A stretch of DNA of 64,000 nucleotides from Sipunculus nudus (lineage: Eukaryota; Annelida; Sipuncula; Golfingiida; Sipunculidae). The notes beneath the pieces are model-generated. The model did no database searches and was not told the origin of the DNA. It saw nothing but the letters and a program-made list of their open reading frames with translations. The stretch spans positions 74,352,300 to 74,416,299 of the forward strand of contig CM049314.1 in assembly GCA_026874595.1 (NCBI GenBank), given 5' to 3'. Numbering within the stretch: the first letter of the stretch is position 1; every line of letters starts with the position of its first letter. The position numbers were made by a program, and so were the translations under genes. Of the stretch, positions 1-64,000 are shown piece by piece.

Positions 1-410
1 GATGTAAAGATCATGGTCACCAGTTTTCAAACCCCTCCAAGAACTTGGTGGAAAAGATAGATGGTAAGGCAATAAGTTTCATAGATCCTCTGAGAATTAG
101 GTTGAAACATTATGTGATACTACAAAAGATATCAGGTTCATCAGAATTTTACATTTTGGCTGATCTGACCCTTTGTGTGTTCAGTTTTAAAAAAAAATTT
201 GAACTTAAATGTTTGAACTTGAAGATCAAGGTCATGTTCAACAGTTTTCAAACACATCTGAGAAAACGCAAAAAAAACCCACCTGACGTGTCAAATTTGA
301 AGATAAATTATGCAGTGCTTCAGAAGTTACCATGGTCATTAGAGCACAAAAATCTTTTAAATTATCATTACCATATGTTTCAATCTCATCAGAGAGCTCT
401 GTTTTAGTAG
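1..410. other. Left-edge non-coding sequence
   Basis: No gene is recognised here. Two halves resemble each other (the motif AGTTTTCAAAC recurs near 21 and 243 after a GATCAWGGTCA-like string), which suggests an old dispersed repeat. The open frame at 45-407 has no recognisable composition and is probably chance. If the host gene continues leftwards, this is intron. Confidence 0.4.
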
Positions 411-469
411 CTATTTTGTCTGTTTGAGGTAGCCTTGTGGAAATTACCTAGGTTTCAGTAGCTATTTTT

Positions 470-3400
470 TTCTGTGTGTTTGAGGTAGCCTAGTGGACAT
501 TTACCTGGGTTTCAGTAGCTATTTCCTGTGAGTTTGAGGTAGCCTTGTGGACATTTACCTTGGTCCCAGCAGCTATTCTTGTCTGTTTGTCCTTGTGGAC
601 ATTAACTTGGGATTGAGTAGCTTTTCCTGTGTGTTTGAGGTAGCCTTGTGGACATTAACTTGGGATTGAGTAGCTTTTTCCTGTGTGTCTGAGGTAGCCT
701 TGTGTACATTAACTTGGGATAGAGTAGCTTTTCCTGTCTGTTTGAGGTAGCCTGGTGGACATTAACTTGGGATTGAGCAGCTTTTTCCTGTGTGTTTGAG
801 GTAGCCTTTTGGATATTAACCTCGTTCTCAGAAGCTATTTCGTGGCTGCATGAGGTAGCCTGGTGGACATTTAGCTAAATTGCAGTTGATATTTCCTGTG
901 TGTTTGATGGAGCCTTGTGGACATTTACCTTGGTTTCAGCAGCTATTCTTGTCTGTTTGAGGTAGCCTTGTGGACATTAACGTGGGATTAAGTAGCTTTT
1001 TCCTGTGTGTTTGAGGTAGCCTTGTGGACATTTATCTGGGTTTCAGTGGCTATATCATATCTGTTTGAGGTAGCCTTTTGGATATTAACCTCGGTTTCAG
1101 AAGCTATTTCGTGTCTGCTTGAGGTAGCCTGGCGGACATTTAGCTGAATTGCAGTTGATATTTCCTGTGTGTTTGATGGAGCCTTGTGCACATTTACCTT
1201 GGTTCCAGCAGCTATTCTTGTCTGTTTGAGGTAGCCTTGTGGACATTAACTTGGGATTAAGTAGCTTTTTCCTGTGTGTTTGAGGTAGCCTTGTGGACAT
1301 TTATCTGGGTTTCAGTGGCTATATCATATCTGTTTGAGGTAGCCTTTTGGATATTAACCTCGGTTTCAGAAGCTATTTCGTGTCTGCTTGAGGTAGCCTG
1401 GCGGACATTTAGCTGAATTGCAGTTGATATTTCCTGTGTGTTTGATGGAGCCTTGTGGACATTTACCTTGGTTCCAGCAGCTATTCTTGTCTGTTTGAGA
1501 TAGCCTTGTGGACATTAACTTGGGATTGAGTAGCTTTTTCCTGTGTGTCTGAGGTAGCCTTGTGTACATTAATTTGGGATAGAGTAGCTTTTCCTGTCTG
1601 TTTGAGGTAGCCTGGTGGACATTAACTTGGGATTGAGCAGCTTTTTCCTGTGTGTCTGAGGTAGCCTTGTGTACATTAACTTGGGATAGAGTAGCTTTTC
1701 CTGTCTGTTTGAGGTAGCCTTGTGGACATTAACTTGGGATTAAGTAGCTTTTTCCTGTGTGTTTGAGGTAGCCTTGTGGACATTTATCTGGGTTTCAGTG
1801 GCTATATCATATCTGTTTGAGGTAGCCTTTTGGATATTAACCTCGGTTTCAGAAGCTATTTCGTGTCTGCTTGAGGTAGCCTGGCGGACATTTAGCTGAA
1901 TTGCAGTTGATATTTCCTGTGTGTTTGATGGAGCCTTGTGGACATTTACCTTGGTTCCAGCAGCTATTCTTGTCTGTTTGTGGTAGCCTTGTGGACATTA
2001 ACTCGGGATTGAGTAGCTTTTCCTGTCTGTTTGACGTAGCCTGGTGGACATTAACTTGGGATTGAGCAGCTTTTTCCTGTGTGTTTGAGGTAGCCTTGTG
2101 GACATTAACTTGGGATTGAGTAGCTTTTTCCTGTGTGTTTGAGGTAGACTTGTGGACATTTATCTGGGTTTCAGTGGCTATATCATATCTGTTTGAGGTA
2201 GCCTTTTGGATATTAACCTCGGTTTCAGAAGCTATTTCGTGTCTGCTTGAGGTAGCCTGGCGGACATTTAGCTGAATTGCAGTTGATATTTCCTGTGTGT
2301 TTGATGGAGCCTTGTGCACATTTACCTTGGTTCCAGCAGCTATTCTTGTCTGTTTGAGGTAGCCTTGTGGACATTAACTTGGGATTGAGTAGCTTTTTCC
2401 TGTGTGTCTGAGGTAGCCTTGTGTACATTAACTTGGGATAGAGTAGCTTTTCCTGTCTGTTTGAGGTAGCCTGGTGGACATTAACTTGGGATTGAGCAGC
2501 ATTTTCCTGTGTGTTTGAGGTAGCCTTTTGGATATTAACCTCGTTCTCAGAAGCTATTTCGTGTCTGCATGAGGTAGCCTGGTGCACATTTAGCTAAATT
2601 GCAGTTTATATTTCCTGTGTGTTTGATGGAGCCTTGTGGACATTTACCTTGGTTTTAGCAGCTATTCTTGTCTGTTTGAGGTAGCCTTGTGGACATTAAC
2701 TTGGGATCGAGTAGCTTTTTCCTGTGTGTTTGAGGTAGCCTTGTGGACATTTATCTGGGTTTCAGTAGCTATTTCCTGTGAGTTTGAGGTAGCCTTGTGG
2801 ACATTTACCTTGGTCCCAGCAGCTATTCTTGTCTGTTTGTCCTTGTGGACATTAACTTGGGATTGAGTAGCTTTTCCTGTGTGTTTGAGGTAGCCTTGTG
2901 GACATTAACTTGGGATTGAGTAGCTTTTTCCTGTGTGTCTGAGGTAGCCTTGTGTACATTAACTTGGGATAGAGTAGCTTTTCCTGTCTGTTTGAGGTAG
3001 CCTGGTGGACATTAACTTGGGATTGAGCAGCTTTTTCCTGTGTGTTTGAGGTAGCCTTTTGGATATTAACCTCGTTCTCAGAAGCTATTTCGTGGCTGCA
3101 TGAGGTAGCCTGGTGGACATTTAGCTAAATTGCAGTTGATATTTCCTGTGTGTTTGATGGAGCCTTGTGGACATTTACCTTGGTTTCAGCAGCTATTCTT
3201 GTCTGTTTGAGGTAGCCTTGTGGACATTAACTTGGGATTAAGTAGCTTTTTCCTGTGTGTTTGAGGTAGCCTTGTGGACATTTATCTGGGTTTCAGTGGC
3301 TATATCATATCTGTTTGAGGTAGCCTTTTGGATATTAACCTCGGTTTCAGAAGCTATTTCGTGTCTGCTTGAGGTAGCCTGGCGGACATTTAGCTAAATT

Positions 3401-6400
3401 GCAGTTGATATTTCCTGTGTGTTTGATGGAGCCTTGTGCACATTTACCTTGGTTCCAGCAGCTATTCTTGTCTGTTTGAGGTAGCCTTGTGGACATTAAC
3501 TTGGGATTAAGTAGCTTTTTCCTGTGTGTTTGAGGTAGCCTTGTGGACATTTATCTGGGTTTCAGTGGCTATATCATATCTGTTTGAGGTAGCCTTTTGG
3601 ATATTAACCTCCGTTTCAGAAGCTATTTCGTGTCTGCTTGAGGTAGCCTGGCGGACATTTAGCTGAATTGCAGTTGATATTTCCTGTGTGTTTGATGGAG
3701 CCTTGTGGACATTTACCTTGGTTCCAGCAGCTATTCTTGTCTGTTTGAGATAGCCTTGTGGACATTAACTTGGGATTGAGTAGCTTTTTCCTGTGTGTCT
3801 GAGGTAGCCTTGTGTACATTAACTTGGGATAGAGTAGCTTTTCCTGTCTGTTTGAGGTAGCCTGGTGGACATTAACTTGGGATTGAGCAGCTTTTTCCTG
3901 TGTGTCTGAGGTAGCCTTGTGTACATTAACTTGGGATAGAGTAGCTTTTCCTGTCTGTTTGAGGTAGCCTTGTGGACATTAACTTGGGATTAAGTAGCTT
4001 TTTCCTGTGTGTTTGAGGTAGCCTTGTGGACATTTATCTGGGTTTCAGTGGCTATATCATATCTGTTTGAGGTAGCCTTTTGGATATTAACCTCGGTTTC
4101 AGAAGCTATTTCGTGTCTGCTTGAGGTAGCCTGGCGGACATTTAGCTGAATTGCAGTTGATATTTCCTGTGTGTTTGATGGAGCCTTGTGGACATTTACC
4201 TTGGTTCCAGCAGCTATTCTTGTCTGTTTGTGGTAGCCTTGTGGACATTAACTCGGGATTGAGTAGCTTTTCCTGTCTGTTTGACGTAGCCTGGTGGACA
4301 TTAACTTGGGATTGAGCAGCTTTTTCCTGTGTGTTTGAGGTAGCCTTGTGGACATTAACTTGGGATTGAGTAGCTTTTTCCTGTGTGTTTGAGGTAGACT
4401 TGTGGACATTTATCTGGGTTTCAGTGGCTATATCATATCTGTTTGAGGTAGCCTTTTGGATATTAACCTCGGTTTCAGAAGCTATTTCGTGTCTGCTTGA
4501 GGTAGCCTGGCGGACATTTAGCTGAATTGCAGTTGATATTTCCTGTGTGTTTGATGGAGCCTTGTGGACATTTACCTTGGTTCCAGCAGCTATTCTTGTC
4601 TGTTTGAGGTAGCCTTGTGGACATTAACTTGGGATTGAGTAGCTTTTTCCTGTGTGTCTGAGGTAGCCTTGTGTACATTAACTTGGGATAGAGTAGCTTT
4701 TCCTGTCTGTTTGAGGTAGCCTGGTGGACATTAACTTGGGATTGAGCAGCATTTTCCTGTGTGTTTGAGGTAGCCTTTTGGATATTAACCTCGTTCTCAG
4801 AAGCTATTTCGTGTCTGCATGAGGTAGCCTGGTGGACATTTAGCTAAATTGCAGTTGATATTTCCTGTGTGTTTGATGGAGCCTTGTGGACATTTACCTT
4901 GGTTTCAGCAGCTATTCTTGTCTGTTTGAGGTAGCCTTGTGGACATTAACTTGGGATCGAGTAGCTTTTTCCTGTGTGTTTGAGGTAGCCTTGTGGACAT
5001 TTATCTGGGTTTCAGTAGCTATTTCCTGTGAGTTTGAGGTAGCCTTGTGGACATTTACCTTGGTCCCAGCAGCTATTCTTGTCTGTTTGTCCTTGTGGAC
5101 ATTAACTTGGGATTGAGTAGCTTTTCCTGTGTGTTTGAGGTAGCCTTGTGGACATTAACTTGGGATTGAGTAGCTTTTTCCTGTGTGTCTGAGGTAGCCT
5201 TGTGTACATTAACTTGGGATAGAGTAGCTTTTCCTGTCTGTTTGAGGTAGCCTGGTGGACATTAACTTGGGATTGAGCAGCTTTTTCCTGTGTGTTTGAG
5301 GTAGCCTTTTGGATATTAACCTCGTTCTCAGAAGCTATTTCGTGGCTGCATGAGGTAGCCTGGTGGACATTTAGCTAAATTGCAGTTGATATTTCCTGTG
5401 TGTTTGATGGAGCCTTGTGGACATTTACCTTGGTTTCAGCAGCTATTCTTGTCTGTTTGAGGTAGCCTTGTGGACATTAACTTGGGATTAAGTAGCTTTT
5501 TCCTGTGTGTTTGAGGTAGCCTTGTGGACATTTATCTGGGTTTCAGTGGCTATATCATATCTGTTTGAGGTAGCCTTTTGGATATTAACCTCGGTTTCAG
5601 AAGCTATTTCGTGTCTGCTTGAGGTAGCCTGGCGGACATTTAGCTGAATTGCAGTTGATATTTCCTGTGTGTTTGATGGAGCCTTGTGCACATTTACCTT
5701 GGTTCCAGCAGCTATTCTTGTCTGTTTGAGGTAGCCTTGTGGACATTAACTCGGGATTAAGTAGCTTTTTCCGGTGTGTTTGAGGTAGCCTTGTGGACAT
5801 TTATCTGGGTTTCAGTGGCTATATCATTTCTGTTTGAGGTAGCCTTTTGGATATTAACCTCGGTTTCAGAAGCTATTTCGTGTCTGCTTGAGGTAGCCTG
5901 GCGGACATTTAGCTGAATTGCAGTTGATATTTCCTGTGTGTTTGATGGAGCCTTGTGGACATTTACCTTGGTTCCAGCAGCTATTCTTGTCTGTTTGAGA
6001 TAGCCTTGTGGACATTAACTTGGGATTGAGTAGCTTTTTCCTGTGTGTCTGAGGTAGCCTTGTGTACATTAACTTGGGATAGAGTAGCTTTTCCTGACTG
6101 TTTGAGGTAGCCTGGTGGACATTAACTTGGGATTGAGCAGCTTTTTCCTGTGTGTCTGAGGTAGCCTTGTGTACATTAACTTGGGATAGAGTAGCTTTTC
6201 CTGTCTGTTTGAGGTAGCCTTGTGGACATTAACTTGGGATTAAGTAGCTTTTTCCTGTGTGTTTGAGGTAGCCTTGTGGACATTTATCTGGGTTTCAGTG
6301 GCTATATCATATCTGTTTGAGGTAGCCTTTTGGATATTAACCTCGGTTTCAGAAGCTATTTCGTGTCTGCTTGAGGTAGCCTGGCGGACATTTAGCTGAA

Positions 6401-7220
6401 TTGCAGTTGATATTTCCTGTGTGTTTGATGGAGCCTTGTGGACATTTACCTTGGTTCCAGCAGCTATTCTTGTCTGTTTGTGGTAGCCTTGTGGACATTA
6501 ACTCGGGATTGAGTAGCTTTTCCTGTCTGTTTGGCGTAGCCTGGTGGACATTAACTTGGGATTGAGCAGCTTTTTCCTGTGTGTTTGAGGTAGCCTTGTG
6601 GACATTAACTTGGGATTGAGTAGCTTTTTCCTGTGTGTTTGAGGTAGACTTGTGGACATTTATCTGGGTTTTCAGTGGCTATATCATATCTGTTTGAGGT
6701 AGCCTTTTGGATATTAACCTCGGTTTCAGAAGCTATTTCGTGTCTGCTTGAGGTAGCCTGGCGGACATTTAGCTGAATTGCAGTTGATATTTCCTGTGTG
6801 TTTGATGGAGCCTTGTGGACATTTACCTTGGTTCCAGCAGCTATTCTTGTCTGTTTGAGGTAGCCTTGTGGACATTAACTTGGGATTGAGTAGCTTTTTC
6901 CTGTGTGTCTGAGGTAGCCTTGTGTACATTAACTTGGGATAGAGTAGCTTTTCCTGTCTGTTTGAGGTAGCCTGGTGGACATTAACTTGGGATTGAGCAG
7001 CATTTTCCTGTGTGTTTGAGGTAGCCTTTTGGATATTAACCTCGTTCTCAGAAGCTATTTCGTGTCTGCATGAGGTAGCCTGGTGGACATTTAGCTAAAT
7101 TGCAGTTGATATTTCCTGTGTGTTTGATGGAGCCTTGTGGACATTTACCTTGGTTTCAGCAGCTATTCTTGTCTGTTTGAGGTAGCCTTGTGGACATTAA
7201 CTTGGGATCGAGTAGCTTTT
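470..7220. repeat. Higher-order repeat, three copies of 2,250 bp
   Basis: Landmark sub-blocks recur at exactly 2,250-2,251 bp steps: for example the block beginning ACATTTACCTTGGTC at 551, 2801 and 5051, and minus-strand open frames ending at 1097, 3347 and 5597. Copies differ at only scattered bases (for example 2584 versus 4834, and 3612). This points to very recent unequal exchange or segmental duplication of about 42 minisatellite units at once. An assembly artefact is possible. Confidence 0.85.
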
Positions 7221-7654
7221 TCCTGTGTGTTTGAGGTAGCCTTGTGGACATTTATCTGGGTTTCAGTGGCTATATCATATCTGTTTGAGGTAGCCTTTTG
7301 GATATTAACCTCGGTTTCATAAGCTATTTCATGTCTGCTTGAGGTAGCCTGGCGGACATTTAGCTGAATTGCAGTTGATATTTCCTGTGTGTTTGATGGA
7401 GCCTTGTGGACATTTACCTTGGTTCCAGCAGCTATTCTTGTCTGTTTGAGGTAGCCTTGTGGACATTAACTTGGGACTGAGTAGCTATTTCCTGTGTGTT
7501 TGAGATAGACTTGTGGACAATAACCTGGGTTTCAGTGGCTATATCATGTCTGTTTGAGGTAGCCTTTTGGATATTTGCCTCAGTTTCAGAAGCTTTTTCG
7601 TGTCTGCTTGAGGTAGCCTGGTAGACATTTACCTGAATTTCAGTTGATATTTCC

Positions 7655-8040
7655 TGTGTGTTTGATGTAGTCTGTGGACATTTCCTCGGTTTCAGGAGCT
7701 CATGAGGGTGTGTTTGATGTAGTCTGTGGACATTTCCTCGGTTTCAGGAGCTCATGAGTGTGTGTTTGATGTAGTCTGTGGACATTTCCTCGGTTTCAGG
7801 AGCTCATGAGTGTGTTTGATGTAGTCTATGGACATTTTCCTTGGTTTCAAGAGCTTATGAGTGTGTGTTTGATGTAGCCTGTGGACATTTCCTCGGTTTC
7901 AGAAGCTCATGAGTGTGTGTTTGATGTAGTCTGTGGACATTTCCTCGGTTTCAGGAGCTCATGAGTGTGTGTTTGATGTAGTCTGTGGACATTTTCCTTG
8001 GTTTCAGGAGCTTATGAGTGCGTGTTTGATGTAGCCTTGT
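7655..8040. repeat. 52-bp subfamily block, first copy
   Basis: About seven units with 52-bp spacing (GGAGCT at 7695, 7747 and 7799) carry CTCGGTTTCAGGAGCTCATG and GATGTAGTC. They are a locally homogenised, shortened variant of the main unit. Because 52 is not a multiple of three, they cannot be part of a continuous coding repeat. Confidence 0.8.
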
Positions 8041-10221
8041 GGACATCTGCCTGGGTTTTAGTAGCAATTTTGTTTGAGTTTGAGGTAGCCTTTTAAACAT
8101 TTTCCTGTGTTTCAGTAGCTATTTCATGTGTGTTTGATGTAGCTATCTTGACATTAACCTGAGTTTCAGTAGCTATTTTTTGTGTCTGAGGTAGCCTTGC
8201 GGACATTTATCTGTATTGCAGTTGATATTTCCTGTGTGTTTGATGGAGCCTTGTGCACATTTACCTTGGTTCCAGCAGCTATTCTTGTCTGTTTGAGGTA
8301 GCCTTGTGGACATTAACTCGGGATTAAGTAGCTTTTTCCGGTGTGTTTGAGGTAGCCTTGTGGACATTTATCTGGGTTTCAGTGGCTATATCATTTCTGT
8401 TTGAGGTAGCCTTTTGGATATTAACCTCGGTTTCAGAAGCTATTTCGTGTCTGCTTGAGGTAGCCTGGCGGACATTTAGCTGAATTGCAGTTGATATTTC
8501 CTGTGTGTTTGATGGAGCCTTGTGGACATTTACCTTGGTTCCAGCAGCTATTCTTGTCTGTTTGAGATAGCCTTGTGGACATTAACTTGGGATTGAGTAG
8601 CTTTTTCCTGTGTGTCTGAGGTAGCCTTGTGTACATTAACTTGGGATAGAGTAGCTTTTCCTGTCTGTTTGAGGTAGCCTGGTGGACATTAACTTGGGAT
8701 TGAGCAGCTTTTTCCTGTGTGTCTGAGGTAGCCTTGTGTACATTAACTTGGGATAGAGTAGCTTTTCCTGTCTGTTTGAGGTAGCCTTGTGGACATTAAC
8801 TTGGGATTAAGTAGCTTTTTCCTGTCTGTTTGAGGTAGCCTTGTGGACATTTATCTGGGTTTCAGTGGCTATATCATATCTGTTTGAGGTAGCCTTTTGG
8901 ATATTAACCTCGGTTTCAGAAGCTATTTCGTGTCTGCTTGAGGTAGCCTGGCGGACATTTAGCTGAATTGCAGTTGATATTTCCTGTGTGTTTGATGGAG
9001 CCTTGTGGACATTTACCTTGGTTCCAGCAGCTATTCTTGTCTGTTTGTGGTAGCCTTGTGGACATTAACTCGGGATTGAGTAGCTTTTCCTGTCTGTTTG
9101 GCGTAGCCTGGTGGACATTAACTTGGGATTGAGCAGCTTTTTCCTGTGTGTTTGAGGTAGCCTTGTGGACATTAACTTGGGATTGAGTAGCTTTTTCCTG
9201 TGTGTTTGAGGTAGACTTGTGGACATTTATCTGGGTTTTCAGTGGCTATATCATATCTGTTTGAGGTAGCCTTTTGGATATTAACCTCGGTTTCAGAAGC
9301 TATTTCGTGTCTGCTTGAGGTAGCCTGGCGGACATTTAGCTGAATTGCAGTTGATATTTCCTGTGTGTTTGATGGAGCCTTGTGGACATTTACCTTGGTT
9401 CCAGCAGCTATTCTTGTCTGTTTGAGGTAGCCTTGTGGACATTAACTTGGGATTGAGTAGCTTTTTCCTGTGTGTCTGAGGTAGCCTTGTGTACATTAAC
9501 TTGGGATAGAGTAGCTTTTCCTGTCTGTTTGAGGTAGCCTGGTGGACATTAACTTGGGATTGAGCAGCATTTTCCTGTGTGTTTGAGGTAGCCTTTTGGA
9601 TATTAACCTCGTTCTCAGAAGCTATTTCGTGTCTGCATGAGGTAGCCTGGTGGACATTTAGCTAAATTGCAGTTGATATTTCCTGTGTGTTTGATGGAGC
9701 CTTGTGGACATTTACCTTGGTTTCAGCAGCTATTCTTGTCTGTTTGAGGTAGCCTTGTGGACATTAACTTGGGATCGAGTAGCTTTTTCCTGTGTGTTTG
9801 AGGTAGCCTTGTGGACATTTATCTGGGTTTCAGTGGCTATATCATATCTGTTTGAGGTAGCCTTTTGGATATTAACCTCGGTTTCATAAGCTATTTCATG
9901 TCTGCTTGAGGTAGCCTGGCGGACATTTAGCTGAATTGCAGTTGATATTTCCTGTGTGTTTGATGGAGCCTTGTGGACATTTACCTTGGTTCCAGCAGCT
10001 ATTCTTGTCTGTTTGAGGTAGCCTTGTGGACATTAACTTGGGACTGAGTAGCTATTTCCTGTGTGTTTGAGATAGACTTGTGGACAATAACCTGGGTTTC
10101 AGTGGCTATATCATGTCTGTTTGAGGTAGCCTTTTGGATATTTGCCTCAGTTTCAGAAGCTTTTTCGTGTCTGCTTGAGGTAGCCTGGTAGACATTTACC
10201 TGAATTTCAGTTGATATTTCC

Positions 10222-10607
10222 TGTGTGTTTGATGTAGTCTGTGGACATTTCCTCGGTTTCAGGAGCTCATGAGGGTGTGTTTGATGTAGTCTGTGGACAT
10301 TTCCTCGGTTTCAGGAGCTCATGAGTGTGTGTTTGATGTAGTCTGTGGACATTTCCTCGGTTTCAGGAGCTCATGAGTGTGTTTGATGTAGTCTATGGAC
10401 ATTTTCCTTGGTTTCAAGAGCTTATGAGTGTGTGTTTGATGTAGCCTGTGGACATTTCCTCGGTTTCAGAAGCTCATGAGTGTGTGTTTGATGTAGTCTG
10501 TGGACATTTCCTCGGTTTCAGGAGCTCATGAGTGTGTGTTTGATGTAGTCTGTGGACATTTTCCTTGGTTTCAGGAGCTTATGAGTGCGTGTTTGATGTA
10601 GCCTTGT
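10222..10607. repeat. 52-bp subfamily block, second copy
   Basis: This is a duplicate of the block at 7655-8040, carried by the 2,567-bp tandem duplication. The order of variant units is the same. Confidence 0.8.
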
Positions 10608-11122
10608 GGACATCTGCCTGGGTTTTAGTAGCAATTTTGTTTGAGTTTGAGGTAGCCTTTTAAACATTTTCCTGTGTTTCAGTAGCTATTTCATGTGTGT
10701 TTGATGTAGCTATCTTGACATTAACCTGAGTTTCAGTAGCTATTTTTTGTGTCTGAGGTAGCCTTGCGGACATTTATCTGGGTTTCAGAGCTATTTGATG
10801 TGTGTTTGAGGTAGCCGTGTGGACATTTACCCGAGTTTAAGTAGCTATTTTGTGCGTGTTTGAGGTAGCCTTGTGGACATTTATTTGGGTTTCAGAGCTA
10901 TTTGATGGGTGTTAGAGGTAACCATGTTGACATTTACCTGGGTTTCAGAAGCTTTCTCCTGTGTGTTTGAGGTAGCCTTGTGAACATTTACCTTGATTTA
11001 AGTAGTTATTTCCTGTGTGTTTGACCTAGCCTTGTGGACATATACCTGAGTATTAGAGCCACGTGGACATTTTCCAGTTACTAGCTATTTCTGTGTGTTG
11101 AGGTAACCATGTTGACATTTAC

Positions 11123-11251
11123 CTGGGTTTCAGTAGCTATTTCCTGTGTTTTTGAGGTGGCCTTGCAGATGGCTGAGGCTCGGGACTTGATGTTTGCCAG
11201 GTTATCTCTCATCTGCAGATTCCTGAGTGATGAGATCAATCTGTGCCGCAG
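11123..11251 (-). CDS. Exon: post-REJ region 3, the source module of the minisatellite
   Basis: The acceptor TTTACTATTGTCAG and donor CCAG|GTAAATG enclose 129 bp, 43 codons, phase 0 to 0. It reads LRHRLISSLRNLQMRDNLAN, then IKSRASAICKATSKTQEIAT and ETQ. The family pattern 'R..LI.SL......AL..AT..T.E(I/V)....Q' is clear. The last 40 coding bases plus the first intron bases are nearly identical to units of the array that starts right after the donor. Reading on through the donor meets a stop within about 15 codons (TAG in the first degenerate unit), so splicing at or near the donor is required. Confidence 0.82.
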
Positions 11252-11645: not shown

Positions 11646-11731
11646 CTGTACTTGATTGAGTTTAGTTCTCTCCTCTGGAGTCTGCAGTGAATTCAGTGTT
11701 GCTGCTACTGTTCCTATCAGAGCTACAGCAC
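11646..11731 (-). CDS. Exon: post-REJ region 2
   Basis: The acceptor TATTTTTTAAACAG and donor ACAG|GTAATT enclose 86 bp. It completes the split codon (G) and reads AVALIGTVAATLNSLQTPEE, then RTKLNQVQ. A weaker donor six bases upstream (TCAA|GTACAG) is also in phase and would drop VQ. This matches the 'L....A..LN......E.R' helices of the family. Confidence 0.88.
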
Positions 11732-12094: not shown

Positions 12095-12230
12095 CTTCTT
12101 TGTTTCCTAAGGTTAACATGGCTGATAAGCTGCCAGCAGAAGATGTTGTATTCGCGCTGCTTACTAACGTCTCTAGCTTGTTAAGAAGGTTCGGGGATGA
12201 TCCATTAACTGTCATTCCTACAGGCAGCAC
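12095..12230 (-). CDS. Exon: post-REJ region 1
   Basis: The acceptor ACTACCTTTAG and donor GAAG|GTAAGG enclose 136 bp (45 codons + 1). It reads VLPVGMTVNGSSPNLLNKLE, then LVSSANTTSSAGSLSAML and LGNKEG. It joins SLNVK of the previous exon without a phase break. This Ser/Thr/Leu-rich helical stretch is typical of the segment between REJ and GAIN/GPS in polycystin-1-like proteins. Confidence 0.88.
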
Positions 12231-16000: not shown

Positions 16001-16560
16001 CGGCATCAGTAAACTTGGCTCAGATAAACCTGATGAATTAGGTCAATCTCAAATAGTCTTTCTTTAATAGGACTTACTTTTGCTTCAAACCTTGCATGCC
16101 CTTGTGATGGGCTAATCATCAATTATAATCTATGATAATTCGTTTGTGTAAAATGATCAAGTTATCAAACTTCCAGTGGGATTTATCAGTTACAAAGATT
16201 TGAACTTAAGTAAGGCTTTGTGATAAGGAAATGAATGCTTATATGTGATCCATGCAAGCAAACTCTAGAGAAGTCTGTGTTTACTGAAAATTACACCTAA
16301 GGTTAGCTAGGGCTTATAGATAAAAAGCTATAAAATTTATACATATAAAAGCATATATATAGCCCTATATATAACAGCTGAGAAAATGTACAAGTCTGTA
16401 TCGCGCTGCAATTTCATACTCTTAAAGGACTTTCTAGTTCTGGTTATAGGTCGGTAGAGGTCAACCAATTTTTACTGATTTCTGTGGATCATGATGTTCC
16501 CAACACTAAGATCCTCTGTCTAGTTATAAGTCGTTCTTTTACGACTGTGAATGTACTTAC
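16001..16560. other. Intronic sequence without recognised content
   Basis: AT-rich sequence before the donor of the central REJ exon. Nothing is recognised. Confidence 0.4.
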
Positions 16561-16767
16561 GATCCAACGGATTATCATAGGTTGCGTAAAAGTAAAAGTC
16601 CACTGGCTCATCCTCATCGTGATATCCGCTGCATGACATGGAGAAGGCGTTAGATAAGGCAGTGCCCTCTGCTGGTGATACCTCACACTTCCCTATTGTT
16701 GGATGGGAATTAATGGTCATGTTAAGATCTGCCTGACCTTTGAAATATGGACAGTAGCTGTCAACCA
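16561..16767 (-). CDS. Exon: REJ module, central part
   Basis: The acceptor TGTTCCCTTTCAG and strong donor GATC|GTAAGTAC enclose 207 bp (2 + 68 codons + 1). It reads VDSYCPYFKGQADLNMTINS, then GKCEVSPAEGTALSNAFSM, CSGYHDEDEPVDFYF and YDNPLD. The G.C.V.P..G.AL...F...CSG(W/Y).D...P..(F/Y).F block is the best conserved part of REJ domains. It is preceded by a 6.8-kb intron carrying a satellite and a LINE fragment. Confidence 0.92.
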
Positions 16768-17096
16768 CTGAAAGGGAACAATAAACGGGAAAATGAATAG
16801 GATTCATACACAATGATCATGTTGTGGTTGAATTATGATGTTATACTTAATACTTACTTCATCACCTCTATTCATCACATTTAAAATAATTAATTTTACA
16901 TTTTAATAAAATAAAATAACAAGTGACCCATGGGTCATGACGCTCAGCTGACTGGGAAGAGATTCCCAAAAGGGAATTTGGTAGTATATACCCATTCAAC
17001 TGAAGCATCAAACAGATTAACCAACAGGCAAAGATTAAGTCTGTATTTATATATCTCAAAGATAGAGAAAAAAATGTGTAAACTTTAAAAACTAGA

Positions 17097-18150: not shown

Positions 18151-19852
18151 GGAAACGAACGTGGCGGCGGCGATGGAACCCGGTCAAAAACATAGTATCC
18201 ACAAAAATTCGTTTTGGAGGATACAAAAATACAGGTGGCTCCACCAGTCTGCAGAAACTAATAAAAAGACTTTATGGTCAATATCCATGCAAAGAATCAT
18301 ATTTATCTCCGCATTAGTTGTTCAGTTACTTCAGCTTTTGTATCAAATTGTCCATTATTCTGAGGGATACTTCAAAGTCCTATAGCTTGAAGAATATGGT
18401 TAACAGAGACCTAATTTCAAGTTTCCACAGGCACTTTTCATGGGCCTCCTTGCATGACAAGAATGAAGATTCTAGGTCCAGTTGTTGCAGTTTGTACCCT
18501 GTTGACAGATAACCACATCTTTAAAGGTCTCAAAAAAAGAGAAAAAAAGGATTGGTAAAAAATTGAAAAAATAGAGGTGGCACACCCAGTCTGCAGAAAC
18601 TGAGGAATAGCTCATGATCAATATGTATGCCAAAAATCATGACCATCAGTCAAGTAGTTAATGAGATACTGCAGTTTTTGTATCTAATTTTCCATTATTC
18701 TCGGGGGGGGGGGGGGGTATTTTGGAGCCATACAGCTTAAAGAATATGGGTAACAGAGACCTAATTTCTGGTTTCCATGGAGACTTTTCATGGGTCTCCC
18801 TGTGAGTCAATAATGAAGATTCTAGGTTCAGTTTTATGATTTGTGCCCGGGTAACAGATGTTCATATCTTTAAAGGTCTCAAAAATAGAGAAAAAATTCG
18901 TAAAAAAACCCGAACAAATACAGGTTGTGCCAGCAGTCTGCAGAAACTGATGTAACACTCCATGATCAATATCCATGCAAACAATTATGGTGATCTCTGC
19001 ATTAGCTTTTCAGATACTTCAGCTTTTGTATCAAATTTTCCATTATTCTGAGCTGTACTTTGGAGTGCCATAGCTCAAAGGATATGGGAGAGACCTAATT
19101 TCAGGTTTCCATGGAGACTTATCTTGGGTCTCCCTGTGTGTCAAGAATGAAGATTCTAGGTCCAATCGTTCTGTTTGTGCCTTGTTAACAGATGTTCACA
19201 TTTTGAAAGGCCTCAAAAATAGAGAAAAAAATTCGTAAAAAATTGAACGATACAGGTGGCGCCACCAGTCTGCAGGAAGTGATGGAACATCTTATGATCA
19301 ATATGTATGCCAAAAATCATGACCATCAGTCAAGTAGTTAATGAGATATTGAAGTTTTTGTATGAATTTTTTTACTATTCTGGGGGATACTTTGGGGCCC
19401 CATAGCTCAAAGGATATGGGTAACAGAGACCTAATTTCTGGTTTCCATGGAGACTTTTCATAGGTCTCTCAGTGTGTTGAGAATGAAGATTCTAGGTCCA
19501 GTCGTTACGAATTGTGCCACGTTAACAGATGACAGAATCCTTAAAGGTCTCAAAAATAGAGGAAAAAATCGAAAAAAATCGAACAATACAGGTGGCACCA
19601 CCAGTCTGCAGAAACTGATGGAACATCTCACGATCAATATGTATGCCAAAAATCATGACCATCAGTGTTATAGTTATTGAGATATTGAAGTTTTTGTATG
19701 AAATTTTTTACTATTCTGGGGGGTACTTTGGGGCCCCATAGCTCAAAGGATATGGGTAACAGAGACCTAATTTCTGGTTTCCATGGAGACTTTTCATAGG
19801 TCTCTCAGTGTGTCGAGAATTAAGATTCTAGGTCGAGTCGTTACGATTTGTG

Positions 19853-19865
19853 CCTGGTTAACAGA
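19853..19865. repeat. Target-site duplication, left
   Basis: CCTGGTTAACAGA, identical to 21,160-21,172. Confidence 0.85.
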
Positions 19866-21159
19866 GGTTTTTAGAAAAGGTGGTCCTTTACGAAAAGTTG
19901 AAAGATGGTATTTAAATGGTAAACAGTTAGAAGTGGTTCCATACTATAAATATCTTGGTATTACTTTCTCAACAAAATTATCCTGGTCAAAAACACAACA
20001 ACAGCAAGCTTTGCAAGCAAACAAAGCTGTATGTATGATTTAAAAATTCAGTAAAAAGTGTAAATATGTTAGTACTAAACATCTCTTTTATCTTTTTTGA
20101 TCTAATGGTAGTGCCAGTATTATTATATGGATGCGAATTATGGGGCTTTAAGAAATCAGAAACTATAGAGAGAGTGCAGCACACATTTTGTAAATATATT
20201 TTAAATGTAGGCCAGAATACTCCAAATGCAGCAGCATTAGGGGATTGTGGCAGATTTCCTTTGTTTGTAACTTGTTTATTACGTTGTGTTAAGTTTTGGG
20301 TTAAATTACTTTATATGCCAGAACATAGGTATCAGAAACAAGTGTACAGTTTGTTGAGGAATTTAGACAACAGTGGTAAATCAAATTGGGTATCTCAAGT
20401 AAGAACATTGCTATTTGAGTCTGGTTTTGGATATGTTTGGATGGCACAGTATGTTGGAGATGCGAATAAATTTTTGAAAGAATTTGAAATTAAAATAAGA
20501 GACATGGCTATTCAAAACTGGCATAGTAATATTGAGTTGTGTAGTAAATTATATTATTATGGTGCTTTCAAATCTATGCTAACTCTTGAAAAGTATTTAT
20601 ATTGTATTCCTAATAAGAAACATCGCATAGCACTTGCTAAACTTCGATGCTCCAATCATGAATTGGCTATAGAAATAGGTCGTCAAAATGATATATCTCG
20701 TGAAGAGAGGATCTGTAAATATTGTTTACATCATGGATACAACATTGTTGAGGATGAAGCTCACTTTATGCAAGAATGTATTCTATATAATGATTTGAGG
20801 ATAAAATACTTTAGACAAGACTTACATTACCCAAGTGAACAAAACTTTATTAAATTATTCAATTTAGACAATCATATTGAGATAATGAATGTTGCTGCAT
20901 ATTTATATTATTCCTTTTTGAGGAGACGAAGAATAATAGATGGTTTAAGTATGTGTTACATACTCACTGATGATGGCAATATAGATACATTGTGTACTAA
21001 GGTATGCAGTCATGTTACATGTGTTTGTTGCATTATATATTAATTAATAATAAGACTGCTACTTTATGTTCTATTAATGCAATTATTTGATTGAATTATT
21101 GTTGAAATGTTTGGAACTTTGGGCCTGAAGCCTTTTTCCTGAATAAACTCTGTTCTGTT
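19866..21159 (+). mobile_element. 5'-truncated LINE insertion
   Basis: A 1.29-kb insertion inside a family A unit, flanked by the 13-bp duplication CCTGGTTAACAGA. It carries the C-terminal part of a LINE ORF2, then a short 3' UTR ending AATAAACTCTGTTCTGTT. The (CTGTT)n-like tail and target duplications fit target-primed reverse transcription with 5' truncation. Confidence 0.88.
19868..21043 (+). pseudogene. LINE ORF2 C-terminal fragment (broken)
   Basis: It first reads VERWYLNGKQ and YKYLGITFS, the end of the reverse-transcriptase thumb. A stop (TAA at 20,041) and a frame change near 20,090-20,100 in a T-run break the frame. The intact part (20,066-21,043) contains PVLLYGCELWG, then a terminal zinc-binding motif CKYC...HFMQEC. 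Such ends are typical of CR1/L2/RTE-like LINEs in invertebrates; the exact clade is not certain. It lies antisense to the host gene. Confidence 0.85.
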
Positions 21160-21172
21160 CCTGGTTAACAGA
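21160..21172. repeat. Target-site duplication, right
   Basis: CCTGGTTAACAGA, identical to 19,853-19,865. The satellite unit resumes directly after it. Confidence 0.85.
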
Positions 21173-22479
21173 TGTTCACATTTTGAAAGGTCTCAAAAAT
21201 AGAGAAAAAAATTCGTAAAAAATCGAACGATACAGGTGGCGCCACCAATCTGCAGGAAGTGATGGAAAATCTCATGATCAATATGAATGCAAAAAATCGC
21301 GACCATCAGTCAAGTAGTTAATGAGATATTGAAGTTTTTGTATGAACTTTTATACTTTTCTGGGGGGTAATTTGGGGCCCCATAGCTCAAAGGATATGGG
21401 TAACAGAGACCTAACTTCTGGTTTCCATGGAGACTTTTCATAGGTCTCTCAGTGTTCCGAGAATGAAGATTCTAGATTCAGTCGTTACGATTTGTGCCAC
21501 ATTAACAGATGACATAATCCTTAAAGGTCTCAAAAATAGAGGAAAAAATCGAAAAAATCGAACAATACAGGTGGCACCACCAGTCTGCAGGAACTGATGG
21601 AACATCTCATAATCAATAAGTGTGCCAAAAATCATGACCATCACTGATGTAGTTATTGAGATATTGAAGTTTTTGTATGAAATTTTTTACTATTCTGGGG
21701 GGTACTTTGGGGCCCGATAGCTCAAAGGATATGGGTAACAGAGACCTAATTTCTGGTTCTCAAGGGGATTTTTCATGGACCTCTCAGTGTGTCAAGAATT
21801 AAGATTCTAGGTCCAGTCTTTACGATTTGTGCCTTGTTAACAGATGTTCACATTTTTAAAGGTATCAAAAATAGAGAAAAAAATTCGTAAAAAATCGAAA
21901 AAAAACAGGTGGCGCCACCAGTCTGAAGGAAGTGATGGAACATCTCATGATCAATATGTATGTAAAAAATCATGACCATCAGTAAAGTAGTTAATGAGAT
22001 ATTGAAGTTTTTGTATGAATTTTTTTACTTTTCTGGGGGGTACTTTTGGGCCCCATAGCTCGAAGGATATGGGTAACAGAGACCTAATTTACGGTTTCCA
22101 AGGAGATTTTTCATGGACCTCTCAGAATCCCAAGTTACAAGGTTCTAGGTCCAGCGGTTACGATTTGTGCCTGGTTAACGGACAGATGGACAGACAGACG
22201 GACAGACGGACAGACGGATAGACAGACGGTCGACGGACAAAGAGTGATCGCTATAGCTCAGATGACTTTCAGTCAGCTGAGCTAAAAATTGCCATGCTGT
22301 TTCATTGATATATTCAAAACAAAGTTTTGCCATCTTGTTAGCTGAAACATAAAACGCAATCACATAATATATTTTTTAAATATTTGATGACATATTCAAT
22401 GATAATACTGGTTTAAACGGTACTTAGATCATGGCTAAAAGAAAACATCTAACAAATACCAATATCAAGGCCTATTTAC

Positions 22480-25279: not shown

Positions 25280-25306
25280 ACAAAACCCATTTACCCGTAT
25301 TGTCTC

Positions 25307-28300
25307 ATGAAAGTTGGATCACTGAACGTCAGAGGACTCCGCAAAAAGATGAAACGGACTGGTTTATGGTTAACGATAAAGAAAATGAAAATTGATATCT
25401 GTTTTATACAGGAGGCTTATGTTACACAGGAAGATGCAAAGATATGGGCTAATGAATGGGATGGAACATTGTTCTTTTCCCCATATAATAATTGTAGTAG
25501 AGGTTTAATTATATGCGTATCTAAAAAACTTCATGTAGAAGGAATGGTGCAGATTCAAATAAGTGAATACAATTCAAGAATTCAGCTGATTAAATTTAAA
25601 AGTGATGGTTCAAAATATGCATGTTTTAATATATATGCACCAAACAGTGATAAGGAGAAAATTATTTTCTTTAATCGATTAAAACATGTTGTACAGTCGC
25701 TAACTTTCTCGGATGAAATTGTAATTTTAGCTGGAGATATGAATACAGTTATGGAGGAAAGTATAGATAATATATATGGAGGGAAATGTAATGAAAAGGT
25801 GATTAAATTGTTTAATAACTGTATTAATTCCTGTGCATTAGATGATATTTATAGATCTATAAATAAGGATCAAAAGGAATTTACATGGTTCAGAAGGAAC
25901 CCGCTAGCTGCTAGACGGCTAGATTACATTTTTATTTGAAAGGGGCTTCTAAATTTATGTAAATCATGTGAAATTAAACCTTACACAAAATCTGATCATT
26001 CATTTGTAACTGCCTCTATCAAACACCATTTAGATCGAGGTCCTGGATATTGGAAACTCAACAATAGTTTGTTCAAGAACAAAAATTTTATAGAATTAAT
26101 CAATAAGTTATTGGATAAAACGATATCAGGAAGTAACAAAGGACTTAACCCACAAATAGTATGGGAGGTATGTAAAAACAGAGTAAAATGCGCTGCATTA
26201 GATTACGGAAGATGTATAGCTTCTTCGACAAAGGTTGAAATGTTGGTGTATAAGGAGCGTTTAAAAGAACTTGAAAAGGAGTTTGTAAATAATCGGGGTA
26301 AAAATATTGGCGAAAAATATTGTGAGCTTAAAATGAAGTACGACATCTTGTGTGATGTAAACTTAAAAGGCGCACAAATAAGATCCAAACTGAAATGGAT
26401 TGAAGCCGGTGAAAAAAATACTTCATATTTCCTGGGCTTAAAGAGAGTAAGAGGTAGTATGAAGTGTATTTCGGTTATAAAAAAGAAAAATGGACATATT
26501 TGTGATGATATAGATGAAATAATGAATGAGTTATATAATTATTATTCTGAACTATACACGAAACATGGTTAATTTGTAAAAGAAAAGTACGATACATTTA
26601 TGGAGAATATAGTTACTCCTCAATTATCGGATGATGATCAAATGATATGCGACGGGGAAGTAACTGTAGAGGAATGCACTGAAGTAGTTAGGTCTATGAA
26701 TCCAAATGCAAGTCCCGGAATTGATGGTCTTGGGCCAAAATTTTATCAAACGTTCTGGAGTAAAATACAAAATATTGTTGTTGATTCATTAAATTATGCG
26801 TTAAAAGTTGGCAGATTGTCAGCCACTCAAAGGAAAGATATTATTATATTGTTACCAAAAGGAGATAAATTGACTAGGAATATAGATAATTTTAGACCAA
26901 TTACATTAACATGTACAGATTATAAACTTGTGGCAGGCGTATTAGCAAAACGATTACAAAGAATTATTATAAAGTTAATAAGTACTGATCAAACTGGCTA
27001 TATTAAGGGGCGTGGAATATTTCAGAATACTCGATTAATTGAAGATATTATATGGTACACGCAGCAAAATAAAATACCAGGTATTCTTCTAGCATTAGAT
27101 TATAGCAAGGCTTTTGATAGCCTGAATAGAGATTTCATGTTACAATGTTTAGAATCATACAATTGTGGGCATAATTATCTACAATGGATAAGGCTCCTTT
27201 ATAAAGATACACAAAGTTGTGTGTCTAATGCCGGCTGGTTATCAAAGTTATTTTCGCTGGAAAGTGGGATTAAACAAGGGTGCCCTTTAAGTGCCCTACT
27301 ATTTATTTTGTCAGTTGAGATATTTTCATGTAAATTAAAGCAAGATTTTACAATTTCTGGTGTAAAAGTAGGCGAAACGCAAGTAAAATTAACACAGTAT
27401 GCCGACGACTTGACTGTTTTTTGTGGAGATAAGATGTCGGTTTTGAAAGTATTCAAATATGCAACAGAATTTGAACAATTCACCGGCCTAAGATTGAATA
27501 TGAAAAAAACTTGTGGGATGTGGTTAGGAAAGTGGAAGGATAGGAGAGACTCCTTAGCTTCCCTAAATATGATACCGCCGGGTGAAAATGTAAAGATACT
27601 AGGTGTCAGATATGCCAATGACCGGTCAGCAGCTGAGGTGGAGAGTAATTGGGAAATCAGGATTAAAAATATAGAAAAAACTGTTAAATCCTGGAGCAAA
27701 AGAAATTTAAGTATTCATGGTAGAGTAATTCTATCAAAGAGTTTGCTGGCCTCACAAATCGTACATTTACTGATGGTACTGCACCCACCGGAACATGTTT
27801 GTAAACGGGTTAACGGTATGATATATAAATTCATTTGGCAGGGTACTGGAAAAGGAAAAGAAAAAGTAAAGAGACTTGTTATGCAGCAGGGATATAGGTA
27901 TGGGGGAATTAATGTTCCAGTTGTTGAAAATATACAGAAAAAATATTTATATTAAATGGTTGAAAAGATTTATGAAATGTTATGACGATAATTGGTTCTT
28001 GATTGGAAAAATGTTATTGGAGTATTTTGGTAATAACATGGTTGTTGCATATTCCAACACAAATTTTGCAAATTTTACACCAAAGGATTATATTAAAAAA
28101 TGCCAATGTTTTATCTCAACTTTTTGAAAACAGTTTTAGACAGTAAAGATGTAAATAATGAATTGGCTGAAAAACAAATGATATGGAATAATGTTAATGT
28201 AAAATACAAAGGTAATACTCTATTCTTTGGCGATTGGTTGAAAAAAGGTATTGTGCATGTTTCAGATGTACTTAACCATAATGCTGGAGTGACTGATTAA
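25307..28300 (+). pseudogene. LINE ORF2 (endonuclease-reverse transcriptase), two nonsense codons and frameshifts
   Basis: Starts 27 bp after ORF1. The APE-type endonuclease part shows LNVRGLR, FIQEAYV, GDMNTV and RRLDYIFI, then a TGA at 25,937; the same frame continues with the SDH motif. A second in-frame TAA stands at 26,570. From 26,600 the reverse transcriptase is open: NFRPITLT, QTGYIKGRGI, LALDYSKAFDS, GIKQGCPLS and the catalytic YADDLTVF (residues 267-274 of that segment). After 27,955 the frame shifts (27,876-28,127) and returns (28,100-28,300). The C-terminal few hundred residues of the family are missing. Confidence 0.88.
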
Positions 28301-32160: not shown

Positions 32161-34140
32161 CTAGAATATGGGTAGTCGACAAGCGACTATATGTATCTGC
32201 AGAAATCAGAGAGGGACGGGTGAAGTGAGGCATGGATTAAGTGGCAAAGGGAATAGAGCGAGGTGTGTTGCATATTAGCATGGATGTCTGCAGTGTAAAT
32301 GTGAATGTAGGTGGTGCCACCTGTCATAAAATCGAGGAAATTGTCCAGGATATATAAACCTGCAAAATTTCAGGTGGATAATTCAAACCACTGCTGAGAT
32401 ATGAGTGATTTTATCTTAAGCAAATGGTCAGATGGACGCTGTGCATAAATGGTTGCAGGTGGCGCCACCAGTTTTGCTTATGATGAAGAGCTATGTGAGA
32501 TCTATACACATGAAAAATATTGACCCAATCGGTCAAACAGTTCCCGAGATATGAATTTGGATGTCTGCAGAGTAAACGTGAATCTAGGTGGCGCCACCTG
32601 TCATAAAATCAAGAAAGCTGTCCAGGATGTATAAACCTGCAAAATTTCAGGTGGATAAGTCAAATCACTTGTGAGACATGAGTGATTTTATCCCAAGGCA
32701 GATGAACAGGTGGACCCTGTTCATAAGTGGTTGCAGGTGGCGCCACCATTTTTGCTTAGGATGAAGAGCTATCTGAGATCTACACGCATGCGAAATTTTG
32801 GCCCAAACGTTCTCCGAGATATGAGCTTGGATGTCTGCAGAATAAACCTGAATATATGTGGCGCCATCTGTCATAAAAAATCAAGAGAGCTGTCAAGGAT
32901 GTATAAACCTGCAAAATTTCAAGTGGATAAGTCAAACCACTGCTGAGATATGAGTGATTTTTATCCCAAGCAAATGAACAGATGGACGCTGTGCATAAAT
33001 GATTGCAGGTGGCGCCACCAGTTTTGCTTATGATGAAGAGCTATATGGGATCTATACACATGCAAAATTTTGACCCAATCGGTCAAACGGTTCCCGAGAT
33101 ATGAACTCGGATGTTTGCAGAGTAAACGTGAATGTAGGTGGCGCCACCTGTCATAAAATCGAGAAAGCTGTCCAGGATGTATAAATTTGCAAAATTTCAG
33201 ATGGATAAGTCAAACCACTTGTGAGACATGAGTGATTTTGACCCTAGGCATATGAACAGATCGACCCTGTGCATAAGTGGTTGCAGGTGGCGCCACCAGT
33301 TTTGCTTATGATGAAGAGCTATAAGAGATCTATACACATGCGAAATTTTGGCTCAATCGGACAAACGGTTCCCGAGATATGAGCTTGGATGTCTGCAGAA
33401 TAAACCTGAATGTAGGTGGCGCCACCTGTCATAAAATCAAGAGAGCTGTCCAGGATGTATAAACCTGCAAAATTTCAAGTGGATAAGTCAAACCACTGCT
33501 GAGATATGAGTGATTTTATCCCAAGGCAGATGAACAGATGGACGCTGTGCATAAGTGGTTGCAGGTGGCGCCATTACTTTTGCCTACGATGAAGAGCTAT
33601 GTGAGATCTATACACACGCAAAAGCAACATTTTGGACCAATCGGTCAAACGGTTCCCGAGATATGAACTTGGATGTCTGCAGAGTAAACGTGAATGTAGG
33701 TGGCGCCACCTGTCATAAAATCGAGAAAGCTGTCCAGGATGTAATAAACCTGCAAAATTGCAGGTGGAAAAGTCAAACCACTGCTGAGGTATGAGTGATT
33801 TTATCCAAAGGCAGATGAACAGATGGACGCTGTGCAAAAATGGTTGCAGGTAGCTACATTTGTGCAAAATTTTAGCCTGATCGGTCCAACGGTTCCCAAG
33901 ATATGTGGGTTTATGTATGGAAACACACGCACAAATGGATGCTGGGCAGAGAGGAAAGGTCAGAGATCAACCAGGCGCAGCAGTTCACATGTGACCGATC
34001 ATTATTCCGAATTTTAAAAAAATTCTGCCCAGTGGTTATGGAGGAGTTCTCTGGAAACCTATGCGGCGCTGGCGGCAGCGTCGGCATCCGACTGAAAAAA
34101 TAGTATCCGAAAAACTCTGTTTTGGTGGATACAATGATTG
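32161..34140 (+). repeat. Family B interspersed repeat with expanded tandem core, copy 2
   Basis: Left end GGGTAGTCGACAAGCGACTA forms a perfect-stem hairpin (GTAGTCG ACAAG CGACTAT with one GT pair). About five core units of 272-280 bp follow, with TTGCAGGTGGCGCCA at about 32,454, 32,731, 33,004, 33,281 and 33,558. Each has a second palindrome about 140 bp on and the phrases GGTTCCCGAGATATGA and AAACCTGCAAAATTTC. The right end has GAGAGGAAAGGTCAGAG and the hairpin at 34,106-34,132 (GTATCCGAAAAACTC / TTTTGGTGGATAC). Confidence 0.85.
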
Positions 34141-43391: not shown

Positions 43392-44949
43392 CTGCAAACC
43401 ATGAACATGTCTGTGATTAACCAAACCTCATTGAATTTTTTTTACTAATTTTAACTGGAAGTGGGACAAACGATGAATTTCAGGTAACAACTTTTTTTTT
43501 AATGAACGATGGCCGATTAAGCTTTGGTGTACTTTACTATAAAAATAAAGTATTTCTAAACAGGATAGGAGGGGCAAAATATATCATTTTGAAAATATTG
43601 GCTATAATGGCGCAAACTTAGACATTTTAAACGCCTCATGATAAATATGTTTTATCAACAAATGTACCTTTAAATGTTAAAATAAAAGTAAGGTCCTTAT
43701 TTCTTCGTGTAAACATACAATATTAACTAAATACCAACATATACAGAATATATCCCGACACATGGTAACACGTACAGCAGACACATCAACATTTCCACCA
43801 AGTTACTGATACAGTCATGCATTCAAAACCAAACTAGGAACGGATACAGGATTTTTAAATAAAGGATTCGGGAGGGGGTGGGAAACCCTTCCCATAATGT
43901 AGAAACATGATGAAAATTAAGGCTATATTGACGCAAGCTGAGGCACGTTTTAATGCGTTTCTACTAGGTTACCTTTTTATACATTAAGTTACCGGCCTCT
44001 ATTTCTCAAAACCTCAAATTGTTCAGATATTGTTAAGTAAATCCATATATAATATAAGGAATTGAACTGTTATAGGGAATGTTTCTGAAATTTACCAATA
44101 TTAAACTATACTGTACTATATGTACTTCCGTTAGCACCAATAACCGTATGTCCGTCTGCTAGGTTACAAAAATTGTCAAAGCAGACGGTCGAATAGCAGA
44201 CACTTTTTCCAAATATCATGTTCCATTGGATTCCTGTTAGACTCATTAACATACCTCCATCTTGGATTACTTTGGCGAAAATCAAACTTTTATTTAGTAG
44301 GCTTTACTAGATAATTCCATCTGCATGGGTCTAACAACGTCTGTAATTTTGTGGACGTTGAATAAAGGTACGATCTTTTGATCTTGTAAAAGTCATTAAG
44401 GAACTTATACATTAAGAATAAAAATGTAGTTTTCTCGTTAATGTTCAGTCATAAATACTTAATCCCAGTAACAAAAAAAAGTTAGTGTTCATTACTGGTT
44501 GCTTTCACAGGGAACTCTGTCATCTATCATGGAAAGGAAAACACAACATTTGGATACAAATATTTTTCAATTTAGGAATACCTGCAATAATTTTTAGTTG
44601 TTTGGACAGTAATTTAGTGGACATTTTAGATGCATTTTTCACATATATTTTGCTGTAAACTGAAATAAAACCACTAAAACACACAGGAAAAACTCTTTTT
44701 TTTCGGCCAAGAAATGTGTGTAATTTATACAAAATATATCTTGATACATTAAAGATCTTATAAGCTAATGCGTTATATGATGATTAAATGGAATTTGGAA
44801 TATGTCTGCTTGACCTGCAAGGTTTAAGAATTCACTGTTAGCCTACCAAACACTCAGCATCTTATTAATTTCAGCATTATGACAAGTGTCAATTTGATTT
44901 ATTTCTCATCTCCGACTAATTTCTTCTTTATTTCTGTGTTTGAACGTAC
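43392..44949. other. Intron within the lectin domain
   Basis: No element is recognised except a 9-bp inverted repeat CCGTCTGCT/AGCAGACGG around 44,152-44,188 with a third AGCAGAC just after it. Confidence 0.4.
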
Positions 44950-45132
44950 CTAACCACTGGTTTTGTAAAGATCCAAACTTGTTAATGACATAATCGTATT
45001 CTTCCATAGAGTGTATAGTCAGCAAGACCCCTCCGAGGGCTCTGCAGTTGATCATAGCATCAGTGAATGGTTCCGGGTCCATGTGGTAGCAGTGACCACC
45101 AAACTCTCCTTCATCAGGCCAGCAATCGTCAT
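44950..45132 (-). CDS. Exon: C-type lectin domain, N-terminal half
   Basis: The acceptor ATTTTATTTTAG precedes 183 bp, phase 1 to 1, with donor TTAG|GTACGT. It reads DDCWPDEGEFGGHCYHM, then FTDAMINCRALGGVLLTIHS and EEYDYV. These are the long-form CTLD landmarks: N-terminal Cys, CY, the A..C..LGG.L..I helix, and the E..(F/Y) helix. A less likely donor sits five bases upstream (AGTG|GTTAGG); the chosen donor is the one that restores the phase of the next exon. Confidence 0.92.
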
Positions 45133-47917: not shown

Positions 47918-47952
47918 TTGGGCAGTTGCTCTGGGGGACCAGCCCTCCCTAG

Positions 47953-63918: not shown

Positions 63919-64000
63919 CTGGGGGGAAAGAATACATACTGTTCCAATAAGACAACTTGAAAATCAATTTTGGGTAATATTTGTACCTACAGAACCTGTA
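63919..64000. other. Right-edge intron
   Basis: Intron upstream of the first discoidin exon. The host gene continues beyond the window. Confidence 0.5.

Follow-up and report, generated by a model that had tools for sequence, protein, structure and literature searches.

An intronic minisatellite in a polycystin-like gene family of Sipunculus nudus carries the end and the splice donor of a coding exon

The last 48 bp of a coding exon, together with the first six bases of the following intron, recur as the 54-bp unit of a minisatellite that fills most of that intron in a polycystin-like gene of Sipunculus nudus. We consider it very probable that a tandem duplication of the exon end and its donor, in the common ancestor of four paralogous loci (A to D), seeded this intronic array, which later expanded without function. 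The window, that is, the whole stretch of 64,000 nucleotides that was analysed (C9:74352300-74416299 within a 1.43-Gb genome), contains locus A. Three further paralogues (B, C and D) carry related arrays, and a fifth (E) has the exon and the donor.

The source exon and the array unit

The source exon of locus A reads LRHRLISSLRNLQMRDNLANIKSRASAICKATSKTQEIATETQ and then gtaaatgtc, and its length and borders are identical in all five paralogues. Tandem Repeats Finder (TRF) finds a period of 54 and 199.0 copies with 78% matches over 401-11048, while cyclic alignment gives 202 rows, of which 128 are 54 bp long and 53 are 53 bp long; at every locus the row counts include the exon's own end and partial units. 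The array thus consists of head-to-tail units of tens of bases in many copies, each unit corresponding to a stretch that holds a donor, and it begins at an exon. The 48-bp exon end matches the array in at least 36/48 bases at 106 positions and reaches 42/48 at three places, one of which (505-552) lies beside the units at 480-540 that a sequence-only reading had named as nearly identical to the exon end. In the window outside the array, the same exon end matches at most 25/48 bases on the gene strand, with a maximum of 28/48 on the opposite one; it matches at most 20/48 on the array's opposite strand, and at most 30/48 when the array is shuffled 100 times. The sequence-only reading had set the exon directly against the array and derived the array from the 3' end of that exon, donor included, inside a polycystin/REJ gene; the analysis bears it out on each of these points, and the exon-to-array match is far above chance.

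Two particulars of that reading are revised. It had described the unit as the exon end plus about 15 bp, whereas it joins 48 bp from the exon's 3' end to GTAAAT, which occupies intron positions +1 to +6; the non-exon part shrinks to 6 bp since GTCCRCAAG belongs to the exon as well. GTCCGCAAG occupies exon positions -48 to -40 at both C and D, and therefore 48 of the 54 unit bases are exonic. The next unit of D reads GTAAATGTCCGCAAGGCTACC, and D's exon end agrees with it in 41/48 bases. The array does start at the donor, as had been claimed, but its far border lies near 393 and not at 411, as judged by eye against paralogue C. This right border is similar, by eye, in A, B and C, and the array end of D is unlike theirs. 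In a comparison by eye of two sequences, the last unit ends in cag followed by gttttt ggatgagcttgaaatg at C and in cag followed by agctct ctgatgagattgaaaca at A; the six bases after cag would be a decayed GTAAAT, and the remainder probably old intron.

Table 1. Features of the window gene and coordinates of the downstream channel exons (window positions unless a C9 position is given)
Feature	Position	Strand	Basis
54-bp minisatellite, about 200 copies, decayed coding sequence	411..11122; last unit to ~393	-	TRF, cyclic alignment
Donor GTAAAT, 6 intron bases within unit	11117..11122	-	read from sequence
Final 48 bp of exon, exon-derived part of 54-bp unit (copy 1)	11123..11170	-	sequence match
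Source exon, 129 bp, phase 0 at both ends	11123..11251	-	open frame; cag precedes, gtaaat follows
Preceding exon, 86 bp, (G)AVALIGTVAATLNSLQTPEERTKLNQVQ	11646..11731	-	matches at paralogues
Second exon upstream, 136 bp, VLPVGMTVNGSSPNLL...GNKE	12095..12230	-	matches at paralogues
Open segment with REJ-domain exon of window gene	16523..16816	-	Pfam REJ, E 1.4e-12
Lectin_C, below cutoff	44909-45145		Pfam
EGF-like match, FXa_inhibition	45462-45836		Pfam, 3.4e-9
F5_F8_type_C, below cutoff	63653-63997		Pfam
PKD_channel exon, A	C9:74324132	-	downstream, same strand
PKD_channel exon, B	C9:74210878	+	downstream, same strand
PKD_channel exon, C	C9:75603746	+	downstream, same strand
PKD_channel exon, D	C9:75634290	-	downstream, same strand
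PKD_channel exon, E	C9:26797954	+	downstream, same strand

The exon that continues the protein (LFAAEEIS...) was located past the array in C, B and A, and a next exon lies past the array at A, B, C and D. The distance to it is 12,530 bp at A, 3,045 bp at C, about 4.3 kb at B (from alignment) and roughly 20 kb at D. An exon-like open stretch adjoins the array at about 285-411 of the window, ending in cag followed by gtggg, and is broken in C. We first assigned the next exon to its part at about 410-285 (LSDEIETYGND...NLTRQ), implying an intron that arose within an exon; both ideas were dropped when the LFAAEEIS... exon was found beyond it. By eye, the C counterpart of this stretch has a stop, an insertion and no donor.

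A REJ exon is present at all five C9 loci and lies, in order, upstream of each PKD_channel exon; each of these channel exons is probably part of the same transcript as the REJ and source exons. From these separate exons we call the host gene polycystin-1-like. The exons around the array, when joined, match no Pfam family above the cutoff (DUF1690 appears below it, E 0.008). The PLAT domain has 41 matches in the genome and none on C9, in a profile search that can miss split exons. Loci A and B (C9:74.18-74.36 Mb) and loci C and D (C9:75.56-75.68 Mb) form two polycystin-like pairs, tail to tail and inverted.

The window holds other elements as well. Retrotransposon-like open frames occupy 25280-27952, with an RVT_1 match at 26573-27952 (E 4e-32). 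On the minus strand, 46958-49836 contains two long overlapping open frames; on inspection by eye, one resembles a reverse transcriptase and the other a tyrosine recombinase, as in a DIRS-like element. Pfam gives no match on 46958-49222. Arrays with units of 278-336 bp lie at 18336-19865, 21156-22179 and 32281-33851, with GGTGGCGCCACC in 2/3 printed units. As for the assembly, COX1 matches on C60, C61, C62, C66, C72, C74, C75 and C89 have open frames of 577-578 aa, and the lack of stops in the standard code suggests bacterial contigs.

Paralogue series and confinement to one gene family

A protein search, for which the query was the exon joined to the stretch at about 410-285 of the window, recovers the source exon in the window (A) and at C9:74182584 (B), 75563164 (C) and 75674919 (D). 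The match at E (C9:26718203) is weak (E 0.147), and the E exon is identical to the other paralogues in 68-71/129 positions. We accept E as a paralogue because the exon length of 129, the borders, the phase and the REJ and PKD_channel neighbours agree. E lies about 48 Mb away on the same contig, with the donor at the same place.

Copy number differs widely within this series. Locus B has 22.0 plus 7.8 copies by TRF (25 plus 10 rows), about 30 in total, around an insertion of about 830 bp. Locus C has about 13 copies (14 rows by cyclic alignment, since TRF splits this array), and D has 2.3 by TRF, in 3 rows. At E, 9 kb contain no such array by TRF and no match by a short blastn search; one 53-bp repeat, the only one there, has 2.5 copies 4.3 kb downstream and differs in sequence. 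Since E has the exon and the donor without an array in these 9 kb, the exon is the source and the direction runs from exon to array.

The insertion in the B array (L001 2967-3803) carries TTAA at each end together with inverted ends that match (CACATTCACTGCC), and resembles a piggyBac-type short element. A second minisatellite with a 72-73 bp unit occurs in a later intron, with 11.7 copies at C (L003 6791-7629) and 3.6 at B (L001 8480-8741); an exon origin for it, checked by translation, gave nothing clear.

Identity between A and B is 98.0% across 1,713 bp on the upstream side and 94.6% across 4,591 bp on the downstream side. The exon identities (A-D 113/129, A-C 108/129, C-D 111/129) do not settle the branching order of A/B, C and D, so the 2.3 copies of D may represent a remnant rather than a primitive state.

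We searched the whole genome with a 35-base unit pattern, allowing up to 3 mismatches. All 79 matches (9 forward, 70 reverse) fall at A, B or D, and the reversed pattern gives none genome-wide; as the more decayed units of C escape this pattern, decayed copies elsewhere are possible. In DNA matching, 8/8 among the matches listed, of which there are at least 8, lie at B, C and D, the window itself being outside the list. At the sensitivity used, the 54-bp unit has no matches elsewhere, and does not form arrays at many unrelated places as a genome-wide satellite would. The claim that the array belongs to this gene and is not a general satellite therefore holds within the reach of the search.

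Growth, coding potential and splicing potential of the array

The structural basis for the length of the array at A lies partly in large duplications. Its 202 rows include 63 distinct ones, and the array has grown in part by duplication of blocks of 2.2-2.6 kb. A shift of 2567 gives 99.1% identity from array position 373 to 2998, including an exact stretch of 1,954 bp, and a shift of 2250 gives 99.1% over 4489-8465; a shift of 4500 gives 98.4%, and shifts of 4817 and 7067 give 97.8% over about 1.07 kb. The block pairs at shift 2567 and at shift 2250 each agree more closely than A and B do upstream, so some of the growth looks young. Those at shifts 4817 and 7067 are no closer than that, and part of the growth may thus predate the split of A and B. 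Among the distinct near-full units of A, 40/59 differ from some B unit by 2 mismatches or fewer and 59/59 by 4 or fewer; conversely, 29/30 B units have an A unit within 4 mismatches, the remaining one being 11 away. The A array may have grown from a B-like state, and a loss of copies at B is possible.

Misassembly could account for some of the near-identical 2-kb blocks. That the blocks, which account for much of the length at A, are an artefact altogether, and that the true array is shorter and B-like, we regard as unlikely. Exact identity over as much as 1,954 bp would fit such an error, and so would the roughly 30 copies of B in spite of its upstream identity to A. The shifts differ, however (2250 and 2567), the blocks overlap in a complicated arrangement, and they deviate from one another at about 1-2% of sites, which is unlike a simply repeated read path. 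The source exon, the unit and the copy series are independent of this question.

The array has lost its coding capacity. Units agree with the consensus base in fractions of 0.816, 0.880 and 0.872 at the first, second and third codon positions (59 distinct units, which are mutually non-independent), and these units of A have no excess of change at third positions. The longest open run, 174 aa, is inside the range of 20 shuffles (107-176). From the donor to the first stop there are 13 codons at A, 13 at B, 18 at C and 39 at D. The sequence-only reading had placed the unit in the frame of the exon; this is true of the 103/202 rows of A that are both 54 bp long and stop-free in that frame, and fails for the rest. 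It had also hinted at a bearing on fast ectodomain evolution, a hint that finds no support, as the extra donors leave no open frame and the array shows no coding constraint.

These results argue against translation of the units with their frame kept, as in a coding tandem repeat: frameshifts and stops interrupt them, with the short array of D staying open from the exon through its extra units, and the array looks untranslated. It is very improbable that it was once an extracellular coding repeat with an 18-aa unit that later became intronic. The 54-bp unit, open in the exon frame, and its 103 intact rows would agree with such a past, as would the frame of D. The codon-position values and the run length within shuffle range speak against it, as do the stops met fewer than 19 codons from the donor in A, B and C and the GTAAAT kept after the exon in all four copies.

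Candidate donors in the array were counted as a GT with at least 8/9 donor positions matched. There are 34 at A (the exon's own and 33 more), 8 at B, one of which belongs to the insertion, 3 at C and 1 at D. At A, the closest competitors are situated 131 and 185 bp downstream; of the donors counted at A, B, C and D, only that of the exon would keep the frame open. This first donor is probably the one used, judging from frame, homology and the conserved length of the exon. The candidates would suit a working splicing element whose competing donors lead to unproductive extended transcripts and so set gene output, and a lack of open frames is what such unproductive forms would show. We nonetheless hold this reading to be improbable. 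The donor bases are no better kept than others: GT, retained in 64% of the 59 distinct near-full units, ranks 34th among 53 dinucleotides; AGGT occurs in 64/202 rows, and a weaker sequence, CAAGTTAAT, is the most frequent form (61 rows). We thus see no selection on donor bases in the units, and a range from 2.3 to 199 copies across paralogues argues against a set function.

A related idea, that the array is a bank of 33 decoy donors that tunes productive splicing and may convert the coding exon end, is quite improbable. Its gene-conversion feedback is prompted by the three differences between the A and B exons, all of which fall in the last 48 of 129 bp, the part shared with the array (chance about 0.05, by our own arithmetic). 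Units acting as internal exons were considered and rejected: a pyrimidine run in the array is at most 5, and at most 12/18 pyrimidines precede an AG. This evidence is weak because the two true acceptors measured have just 11 and 13/18.

We favor instead a seeding of the array by tandem duplication. In the ancestor of A to D, a stretch of 54 bp (48 of exon and the first 6 of intron, with the donor core) would have undergone tandem duplication. With the upstream donor still functional, as we propose, the extra copy would have stayed intronic and been free to decay. It would then have multiplied, at A partly by blocks of about 2.25 and 2.57 kb, with about 200 copies and a 12.5-kb intron as the outcome. 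Unequal exchange or replication slippage probably drove this growth, which appears to have been neutral; the array most likely has no function.

Comparison with known systems and implications

Human IFI6 (6-16, G1P3) contains a minisatellite with a short unit of about 12 nt. This minisatellite is reported to supply several splice donors (Turri, Cuin and Porter 1995; via PMC4526556, PMC2572611), and it is the nearest case known to us, its units likewise carrying the donor of an exon. The array at A differs in its 54-bp unit, of which 48 bp are coding, in its roughly 200 copies over 10.7 kb and in its series of paralogues. For IFI6, use of further donors is reported, whereas those at A are candidates read from sequence alone.

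Intron gain by tandem duplication of AGGT shares with our case a duplication across an exon-intron junction in which the splice signals of the parent copy are inherited. At A an existing intron has been lengthened and no new one gained, because E has its donor in the corresponding position and the next exon's acceptor is found past the array. The C. elegans minisatellite CeRep25B is over-represented near alternative splicing regions in many genes (PMC4039745), and resembles our array as an intronic minisatellite with a possible tie to splicing; the 54-bp unit, by contrast, was detected in a single gene family, from whose own exon it derives. Among the literature matches listed, in which subscription papers are thinly covered, nothing is closer than these three.

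In this family, the end of a coding exon with its donor is the seed of a 10-kb intronic array. States of 0, 2.3, about 13, about 30 and about 200 copies in one genome make the stages of array growth comparable. The 34 near-equal donors with near-identical flanks offer a natural test of how the spliceosome chooses among them. Such arrays mimic exon ends and can mislead gene annotation, and the polycystin-like loci of S. nudus provide a case for how introns grow from inside their own gene.
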